NCBI GenBank assembly: GCA_002719885.1
Contig: PBFH01000044.1
Location: 7,642-39,947, forward strand
DNA: 32,306 bases
Source of the DNA: Rhodospirillaceae bacterium
GTDB lineage: Bacteria > Pseudomonadota > Alphaproteobacteria > MPNO01 > UBA2964
Direction of reading: 5' to 3'
The notes under the pieces are model-generated. The model ran no database searches, was not told where the DNA came from, and saw only the letters and a list, made by a program, of their open reading frames with translations. A program made the translations under genes and the position numbers. This document shows, one piece after another, positions 5,077 through 7,552 of the stretch; the stretch's first letter is position 1; each line of letters starts with the position of its first letter.

Positions 5077-6567
5077 TTACTCACCTAAGTCAACATTGAT
5101 CCGATTTTCGGTAAACGACGCTAAAAGACTTATCGGTTTATTTTTCTTGACCATCATTGGACTAGATAATGGGTACACTGATTGTTTCCAATGTGTTGAG
5201 GCGCTGAAGGGTGAAGTCGATATAAAAGTATCTTCATTCAATTGAAGATCAAACCACAAAGCAATTCCATGGGCCATTCCATCAGTATTTGGGGTCAACT
5301 TAAATTTATGTCTCTTCGGAACAAATTTTTTCGAAGGAAACTCGAATTTAAAAATTTCAGTTGGTTTGCTAAGAATTTTCCATTGGAATTTAGAAAGGTC
5401 AGTTTGCAAACTCATTCTAGGTTTTATTCTATTAAAAAGCCGGATATCAAGACTCGCAACCTTGTCAACTCGACTTTCCTGATAAATTTTTTTACTTTCA
5501 AATGGGGCCGCAAAAACAGTCGCACCACAGGGTATTACGATGACACCTGGTTTACATAGCCTTTTTACAGCATCATTTATCACTGGTATAATTTTTTCTC
5601 CTAGTAAACTCGCATCAACTAATTCGGCTATTAAAACATCAGCCTTTTGTTTAAGCTCAACTCCTATACTCAAAAATTCTGAATGTTTATGTATAATAGA
5701 TATTTTATCATCAAACCCATTGTCTTTGATGATTTTGGTTGCCGTTTCCGCTAAAATTTCGACAGCTTCGCAAGCTATAACGTGTCGTGCGCCGGCACGA
5801 CTTGCTAACATTGCGAGTAGACCTGTCCCCGTTCCAATGTCGAGAACATATGTTTCTGGTTTTATGGTGGCATTAATGGCTGTCTCAAAGGCTTCGGTTC
5901 GTTCATAATCATTTAACATTGCTGCGTGCCAGTGCGGTATCACCAATTCGAGGATCGAATCTAGAGCTGATTGAGCAATAGCGTTCTCAGGTTCACGGTT
6001 TAGTGCTGTTTTGTAGCATTTAATAGCAGCATCATTCATACTGGAGTTACGATACTCATTACCTAACGCAATGTAGCCTTCAGCTGACTCTGGATTTAAT
6101 AAGGTTGCTTGTAGAAGATTATCAATTGCCGAGGTTACCTTCCCCATCTCTGAATAAGTTTTTCCGCGACCTAAGAAAGCCTGATCATTAAGTGGAGAAA
6201 GTTCAACAGCCTTGTCATATGATTTAATCGCGGTTTCAATAAAGCCGTAGCAATGAGAAATATCTCCATTGATACGAAGAATATCGCTTGTTGACCCTGT
6301 TGCGTTAATTGCCTTTTCAAAAAACTTTAGGCTCAAGGTATCCTGACCACGTTTTTTTGATAGCAATGCTTTTAAAATATAAACAGGAGAAATTAGTGGT
6401 TCGGAACATTCGTCCAGTACAGACTCCGATTGCTGTGTTGCACTTTTTTTCAACAGTTCCAGTGACCGAAGTATAAATTTTCCTTGGGAAGTCCGTCCCG
6501 ATTTAGTGCTTTTAATGTTGACTTCTAAATCATCAAGAAGGTCATTAACCTTATTCTTAAAATTCAT
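5077..6567 (-). CDS. TPR-repeat protein arginine methyltransferase, PRMT7/PRMT9-like
   Basis: Protein of 496 residues in two parts. Residues about 60-205 form tetratricopeptide-like helical repeats (for example SYDKAVELSPLNDQAFLGRG, AIKCYKTALNREPENAIAQS). Residues about 210-496 form an AdoMet methyltransferase with the full set of PRMT landmarks: MLNDYERTEAF before the core, motif I VLDIGTGTG (241-249), a double-E loop ELVDASLLGE with Glu315 and Glu324 nine apart and Asp at +3 as in PRMT7, and a THW loop THWKQ at 458-462. By family it should methylate arginine side chains of proteins. The frame opens at 6636, but that would overlap rlmB; the Met at 6567 leaves a 16-base gap behind the rlmB stop. 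PRMTs are uncommon in bacteria. Often mislabelled L11 methyltransferase or generic TPR protein; the THW loop argues against that. Confidence 0.85.
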   Translation of the reverse strand: MNFKNKVNDLLDDLEVNIKSTKSGRTSQGKFILRSLELLKKSATQQSESVLDECSEPLISPVYILKALLSKKRGQDTLSLKFFEKAINATGSTSDILRINGDISHCYGFIETAIKSYDKAVELSPLNDQAFLGRGKTYSEMGKVTSAIDNLLQATLLNPESAEGYIALGNEYRNSSMNDAAIKCYKTALNREPENAIAQSALDSILELVIPHWHAAMLNDYERTEAFETAINATIKPETYVLDIGTGTGLLAMLASRAGARHVIACEAVEILAETATKIIKDNGFDDKISIIHKHSEFLSIGVELKQKADVLIAELVDASLLGEKIIPVINDAVKRLCKPGVIVIPCGATVFAAPFESKKIYQESRVDKVASLDIRLFNRIKPRMSLQTDLSKFQWKILSKPTEIFKFEFPSKKFVPKRHKFKLTPNTDGMAHGIALWFDLQLNEDTFISTSPFSASTHWKQSVYPLSSPMMVKKNKPISLLASFTENRINVDLGE

Positions 6568-6583
6568 CGGTATAAAATTTACT

Positions 6584-7357
6584 CTAAATAGTTTTAGTAA
6601 GAGAGAATAATGCAATGGCACAAGCATTCGATACATTCAAACTAGAAATAGGTCCGTGTCCTTCTATCTTTGTAAGTTCATCACAACTTTGTTTGACCAA
6701 TCGCCTTAATCCGCTTCCCTCGGCGCCTAGAACAATTGCGGTTAAATTGTTTGGGACATAATCGCTCAACGCACGGGTCGAATTTGAGTCTAACCCCAAA
6801 CACCAGAAACCGCCCAATTTTAGTTTTTCCAAAGAACGGGATATATTTTTTACTCTGATAACTGGAACCTTTTCCATTCCACCAGACGCGGCCTTGGCAA
6901 TGATGCCGTTAAGTGTCGGAGAGTGCCGGTCCTGGATAATAACAGCGAGGGCTCCAAAAAACGCGCCGGAACGAATAATAGAGCCTATATTCCTTGGGTC
7001 TGTAATTTGATCTAAAACAATGATAACCCCTCTTTGCCTAGTTTTTGCTTCATTACATATTTGCTCAATGTTGACTGCCGGTAGTTTTGATACCAGAGCT
7101 GCTATCCCTTGGTGTACAGCTCTTGGCGGTAGTAATGCCTCCAGTTGATGAGGAGAGACCATCTCTAATTTTATCTCAGTGTTTTGGGCGTATTGGGCTT
7201 GATCTAGATGACCGTCTTTCGACAGAAGGATGCGTTTAGTTTTTCGGTCTGCGTTCTTTAGTGCGGCCATGACTGCATGATGGCCATAGATCCAAATTTC
7301 TGCGGAATTATTTTTAGGACGAGCACTACTATGGGATTGAAACCGGGCAGCTGCCAT
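6584..7357 (-). CDS. rlmB: 23S rRNA (guanosine-2'-O-)-methyltransferase RlmB (TrmH/SpoU family)
   Basis: SpoU-family methyltransferase of 257 residues, the normal RlmB size, expected to methylate the 2'-O of G2251 (E. coli numbering) in the peptidyl-transferase P-loop. The N-terminal substrate-binding domain opens with IWIYGHHAVMAAL. The knotted SPOUT domain carries the three motifs: LDQITDPRNIGSIIRSGA (115-132, with Asn123 and Arg129), IVLGAEGSGLRRL (208-220) and SSLNVSNACAIALF (238-251). The frame is open to 7525, but the ATG at 7357 has AAGGAG just upstream and gives the standard N-terminus. It heads a minus-strand pair with the PRMT-like gene, divergent from tRNA-Tyr. rlmB next to tRNA-Tyr and tRNA-Gly is a familiar alphaproteobacterial arrangement. 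Confidence 0.93.
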   Translation of the reverse strand: MAAARFQSHSSARPKNNSAEIWIYGHHAVMAALKNADRKTKRILLSKDGHLDQAQYAQNTEIKLEMVSPHQLEALLPPRAVHQGIAALVSKLPAVNIEQICNEAKTRQRGVIIVLDQITDPRNIGSIIRSGAFFGALAVIIQDRHSPTLNGIIAKAASGGMEKVPVIRVKNISRSLEKLKLGGFWCLGLDSNSTRALSDYVPNNLTAIVLGAEGSGLRRLVKQSCDELTKIEGHGPISSLNVSNACAIALFSLTKTI

Positions 7358-7487
7358 GTCTTTCTTCTCCTTGCACTTCTGTTTTTGCCCTTCTATATTG
7401 CGTCCTAATACGAAGTTAAAGCAAATACTCAATCGATAGTTCCCATAGATGGTATTTAGAGAATTTGTATTTAGCTGAATAAGGACA

Positions 7488-7517
7488 TTGACAAGCAGGC
7501 CTAATTTCCCGTATTTG
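7488..7517 (+). promoter_or_regulatory. Candidate sigma70 promoter for tRNA-Tyr/tRNA-Gly
   Basis: A perfect TTGACA at 7488-7493 is followed after 18 bases by TATTTG (7512-7517), a weak -10. The next bases (CTCGCC) form a GC-rich discriminator of the kind found at stringently controlled stable-RNA promoters. The start point would lie about 30 bases before the tRNA-Tyr gene. The -35 and discriminator are the supporting signals; the -10 is poor, so confidence is moderate. Confidence 0.42.
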
Positions 7518-7552
7518 CTCGCCAATTCCTCTATCTGACTGGATTGGAACTA

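Follow-up and report, generated by a model that had tools for sequence, protein, structure and literature searches.

A TPR-bearing, single-module candidate arginine methyltransferase of the PRMT7/9 branch in Alphaproteobacteria

Introduction

Protein arginine methylation is regarded as largely eukaryotic. PRMT7 and PRMT9 make mono- or symmetric dimethylarginine, and the second PRMT9 module is inactive. PrmA, the ribosomal protein L11 methyltransferase, lacks the PRMT barrel and loops, and SznE belongs to streptozotocin biosynthesis. PRMT9 is built of tandem PRMT modules (PMC10578352). SznE/StzE is an arginine-guanidino methyltransferase that provides N-omega-methyl-L-arginine for SznF (review, PMC11705231). 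Our search of the literature on bacterial PRMTs yielded only a review, which mentions predicted Legionella PRMTs and M. tuberculosis Rv1988.

Here we describe a 496-amino-acid protein from a Rhodospirillaceae bacterium in which tetratricopeptide repeats (TPRs) precede one PRMT module. The window is the whole stretch of DNA analysed, 32,306 nucleotides of one contig from a metagenome-assembled genome (MAG) whose isolate name, RS665, may point to a marine habitat of the host.

Results

The gene is a complete minus-strand open reading frame running from 6567 to 5077. A longer frame from an alternative ATG at 6636 was rejected, as it would overlap rlmB and finds no support in relatives. All eight of the other same-genus genomes sampled carry the gene, one of them as a contig-end fragment only, and a contig search with one query sequence found one close MAG, labelled Rhodospirillales (L028). 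Compared with this nearest relative, dN/dS was approximately 0.22–0.26 over 434 clean codons, indicating purifying selection. The gene is real. Features of the locus, in window coordinates, are as follows.

5077..6567, minus strand: TPR-PRMT gene, 496 aa (open reading frame and translation, genus conservation, dN/dS)
5968..6381, minus strand: N-terminal TPR region, about aa 63–200, with clear repeats at aa 110–200 (Pfam and NCBIfam TPR models)
5926..5931, minus strand: junction motif W213-H214, separated by 19 residues from the last TPR proline, P-x19-WH (alignments)
5815..5847, minus strand: AdoMet motif I, VLDIGTGTGLL, aa 241–251
5596..5625, minus strand: double-E loop E-L-V-D-A-S-L-L-G-E, E315 to E324 (aa 315–324)
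5095..5523, minus strand: PRMT_C barrel/oligomerisation region, aa 349–491 (PF22528)
5188..5196, minus strand: THW loop T458-H459-W460, aa 458–460
6584..7525, minus strand: rlmB, 23S rRNA 2'-O-methyltransferase, 16 nt upstream of the TPR-PRMT gene (TIGR00186, E 2e-56)

A preliminary description, made from the DNA letters, had proposed N-terminal TPRs followed by one PRMT module, rather than a tandem pair, with an AdoMet motif, a double-E loop in the PRMT7/9 style and a THW loop, and all of these elements were recovered. Pfam matched TPR_11 (E 8e-16) and TPR_1 (9e-14), the best repeat lying at aa 162–195; NCBIfam TPR matches were weak and began at aa 57–63, and in phmmer searches of the PDB the TPR region matched engineered TPR and OGT structures. 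Pfam places the AdoMet core between the TPRs and PRMT_C, the latter scoring 61.5 bits (E 1.2e-16) against a cut-off of 27, and the protein ends five residues past that match, leaving a single module. Motif I, both loop glutamates and THW are intact. The order of a Rossmann core and then a barrel/oligomerisation domain, as in the PRMT superfamily, is supported by PF22528 and by a near-full-length profile alignment to PRMT7/9. An AlphaFold2 model built from five sequences (the query, L028 and three viral-contig relatives) reached a pLDDT of only 41.5.

Automatic annotation would instead make the protein a PrmA-type ribosomal-protein methyltransferase, an identity that a 40-bit Pfam PrmA match, the RefSeq names of relatives and the neighbouring rlmB could all be taken to favour. 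The match is limited, however, to the class I AdoMet core that the two proteins have in common (aa 230–344), no full-length PrmA match was obtained (NCBIfam 19–34 bits against cut-offs of 183–327), and the PRMT_C barrel and the double-E and THW loops are present in the 496-aa protein, so that we regard this identity as highly improbable.

Among solved structures the closest were PRMT7 and PRMT9, with phmmer E-values of 1e-46 and 1e-37, respectively, when the entire protein was the query, and 6e-48 and 3e-37 when only its PRMT part was used. Built from 16 bacterial catalytic domains, a profile scored 306 bits against PRMT7, 281 against PRMT9 (these two scores each covering two modules) and 222 against T. 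brucei PRMT7, compared with about 150 bits or less against PRMT1, PRMT3, PRMT6 and CARM1. PRMT7 thus gave the highest profile scores; the mouse and C. elegans proteins share the E-x2-D-x2-L-x-G-E loop and an HW.Q loop with the bacterial protein, and T. brucei PRMT7 likewise has one module. PRMT7 differs in having neither TPRs nor the W-H junction motif (FH in T. brucei), and its post-I motif is AIE, ALE or AVE rather than the ACE of the bacterial protein.

The domain order of TPRs and then PRMT, initially likened to that of animal PRMT9, held up and extends to a collinear junction of equal length. A TPR plus PRMT profile matched Xenopus PRMT9 (8rbk) in a single stretch, with 240 bits in the N-terminal half; TPRs and junction align gap-free, and the first break is a one-residue insertion shortly before motif I. 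W213-H214 is invariant in the TPR alignment, and P-x19-WH, in which the last TPR proline stands 20 residues before the tryptophan, occurs in 33 of the 43 bacterial rows scored, most exceptions being TPR-less, having another residue in place of the proline, or having been mis-scored by the motif search. The W-H pair with equal spacing is found in PRMT9 too; this pair, like the Cys that precedes the post-I Glu (C266-E267), is common to the bacterial protein and PRMT9 but missing in the PRMT7 rows. Further likenesses are an RWHF.MLND-like start, the ACE post-I motif and an E-x-V-D-A-x-L-x-G-E loop; differences are the tandem module pair of PRMT9 as opposed to the single module here, and TCW where the bacterial protein keeps an intact THW.

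Trees were built from catalytic domains, PDB alignments supplying the eukaryotic rows. In them PRMT7/9 and the bacterial group came together to the exclusion of PRMT1–4 with support of 100/99, and 98/88 in a larger set. Together with the profile scores and the loops, this places the protein in the PRMT7/9 branch and not with PRMT1–4 or PrmA; this membership is secure. When the root was placed on PRMT1–4, both PRMT7 (that of T. brucei included) and PRMT9 nested among bacterial sequences, the node excluding the family clade of the 496-aa protein having support of 97/93, and an arrangement holding all bacteria together was only marginally disfavoured (AU p 0.046). Of the bacterial proteins encountered here, this family is the nearest kin of animal PRMT7 and PRMT9. 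Separate origins of PRMT7 and PRMT9 are not claimed, because AU tests did not reject the two as one clade (p 0.26; p 0.17 with T. brucei added). PRMT9 joined a betaproteobacterial protein with N-terminal TPRs from an Eleftheria terrae plasmid (98/89 or 85/91), both being long branches, and in both trees the clade of the 496-aa protein branched apart from PRMT9. The initial label of PRMT9-like is therefore apt for architecture and junction, but nothing in the tree marks PRMT9 as its particular partner.

The likeness to PRMT9 could have arisen by convergence, if bacteria and animals each made their own fusion of TPRs to a PRMT7/9-type module. TPRs are promiscuous, their number differs from one bacterial relative to another, members with none fall inside the bacterial group, and in the catalytic tree PRMT9 does not lie next to the clade of the 496-aa protein, all of which would fit such a history. 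Convergence would not readily account for the P-x19-WH spacing being of equal length in PRMT9, for the gap-free alignment across the junction, or for the C266-E267 and W-H residues being shared with PRMT9 and not with PRMT7, and we consider it possible but doubtful. The common spacing, W-H pair and Cys favour a single ancestral TPR-PRMT fusion.

The Eleftheria terrae protein (L046, 4432–7083) is 883 aa long: TPRs at its N-terminus are followed by a long middle part that no Pfam model matches and, at the C-terminus, by a PRMT-like domain in which Lys replaces the second loop Glu. PRMT-like domains were also seen within non-ribosomal peptide synthetase frames (L024, in G059, 2197 aa; L049, a Nostoc plasmid), and a Streptomyces sp. 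F2 plasmid (L045, 3024–6981) encodes a methyltransferase distantly resembling PRMTs, with a gene of the arginine deiminase family a few genes away.

Relatives at E 1e-20 or better were present in 54 of 386 alphaproteobacterial genomes, or 32 of 266 genera, and most bear TPRs, which vary in number and are missing from some members; a search with the PRMT_C model alone marked 8 of 299 Pseudomonadota. The genome survey covered Alphaproteobacteria, and the Streptomyces and Nostoc relatives come from plasmid records. No match was found among the phage records searched, and the viral contigs searched held distant PRMT-like stretches alone, all without the W-H motif. Public records name several relatives '50S ribosomal protein L11 methyltransferase' or 'tetratricopeptide repeat protein'. 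The early remark that such enzymes are rarely described in bacteria thus needs qualification: the family is widespread, and its apparent rarity partly reflects mislabelling as L11 methyltransferase. The 496-aa protein is best read as a bacterial variant of the PRMT7/9 kind with TPRs and a single module, and not as an oddity. In one TPR-PRMT subclade (L012, L013, L014, L076, L077, L078, L081, L089) the second double-E Glu is replaced by Pro, mostly as SELINxGMLAP, which suggests altered or lost chemistry there; the chemistry would therefore not be common to all members.

The pair formed with rlmB is adjoined by tRNA-Tyr, tRNA-Gly, tuf and rpsJ. It is present wherever a same-genus contig spans the junction, and recurs in two more of the family's genera. 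It is confined to that one family, the two genes being unlinked elsewhere. In genus g4 the cupin gene follows rlmB immediately and the PRMT is missing; at the empty site of L101 and L103 (in G012 and G011) both the PRMT and the luciferase-like gene are absent between rlmB and the cupin gene. Both members of the pair change quickly within the genus: identity to most of its members is about 51–55% for RlmB and 45–47% for the PRMT, compared with 93–98% for EF-Tu. Convergent to the pair lies a separate block encoding Rieske dioxygenase subunits, an SDR, PhyH, a cupin and a luciferase-like monooxygenase, conserved genus-wide and mostly at 62–90% identity. A functional link between the PRMT and the luciferase-like gene was considered and rejected as weak, because the closest relative (G006; L051, 7386–7584) retains the methyltransferase with only short end remnants of the luciferase-like gene, the product of either an internal deletion or a MAG assembly error.

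The main alternative is a small-molecule role: the substrate would be a small molecule bearing a guanidino group, whether free L-arginine or a conjugate, as for SznE, and the TPRs would hold the enzyme in a biosynthetic complex or similar. SznE/StzE likewise methylates the guanidino group of arginine, though it acts on free L-arginine and is likened here by description and not by sequence. TPR-less relatives in Pantoea dispersa (plasmid NZ_CP082345.1; L042, 4259–9477; the best plasmid match, 35% identity) and Methylobacterium indicum (plasmid; L048, 5917–9974) nest in the same branch of the tree, and both loci, which are mutually homologous, set the PRMT7/9-like methyltransferase beside Rieske and ATP-grasp genes and a gene of the Haem_oxygenas_2 plus cupin architecture of SznF. 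Each is probably a biosynthetic cluster of the nitrosourea type outside Streptomyces, its product derived from N-methylarginine and perhaps an N-nitroso compound, and since they mirror the SznE and SznF arrangement, small-molecule use is likely in part of the branch, with the TPR-less members probably acting on free arginine. The 496-aa protein and most of its relatives, however, carry TPRs on a junction of fixed length, and around its gene lie rlmB and an oxygenase cluster that contains nothing SznF-like, so for this protein we consider a small-molecule role unlikely.

Discussion

We favour, as reasonably probable, the reading of the 496-aa protein as an arginine (guanidino-N) methyltransferase that uses AdoMet, belongs to the PRMT7/9 branch and would act on one or a few proteins. 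Its protein-arginine activity is something we infer. In favour of this reading stand the profile ranking, the intact catalytic residues, the PRMT_C score far above cut-off, the trees, the alignment to Xenopus PRMT9 across TPRs, junction and PRMT part, the rlmB-PRMT bicistron and the purifying selection; the TPR-less branch members in clusters suggestive of free-arginine substrates and the subclade without the second loop Glu count against it. By homology, motif I and E267 would bind AdoMet, while E315 and E324 would grip the arginine guanidinium between them. Because there is no second module with which to form a pseudodimer of the PRMT7 or PRMT9 type, barrel and arm would be expected to pair two chains into the usual PRMT dimer, here a homodimer. 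The TPRs stand directly ahead of the first catalytic helix, a position suited to presenting a protein, and may hold the substrate or a partner, while the PRMT7/9-like loops suggest mono- or symmetric dimethylarginine as product. The fixed pairing with rlmB weakly suggests, as a guess, that the substrate belongs to the ribosome or another part of the translation apparatus; that the pairing is found in one family only and that g4 retains rlmB without the PRMT argue against such a link.

As to origins, we raise only tentatively that PRMT9, and perhaps PRMT7, arose from a TPR-PRMT of bacteria, possibly of Alphaproteobacteria, in which the docking module was already in place, with the 496-aa protein as a living single-module form and itself a protein-arginine methyltransferase.

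The TPR-PRMT family, carried by about one in seven of the sampled Alphaproteobacteria under wrong names, would point to a regulatory protein mark to be sought in bacteria. The family would also offer a bacterial single-module point of comparison for the origin of the tandem enzymes PRMT7 and PRMT9, and would make it possible to delete the gene from a genome and compare methyl-arginine proteomes.
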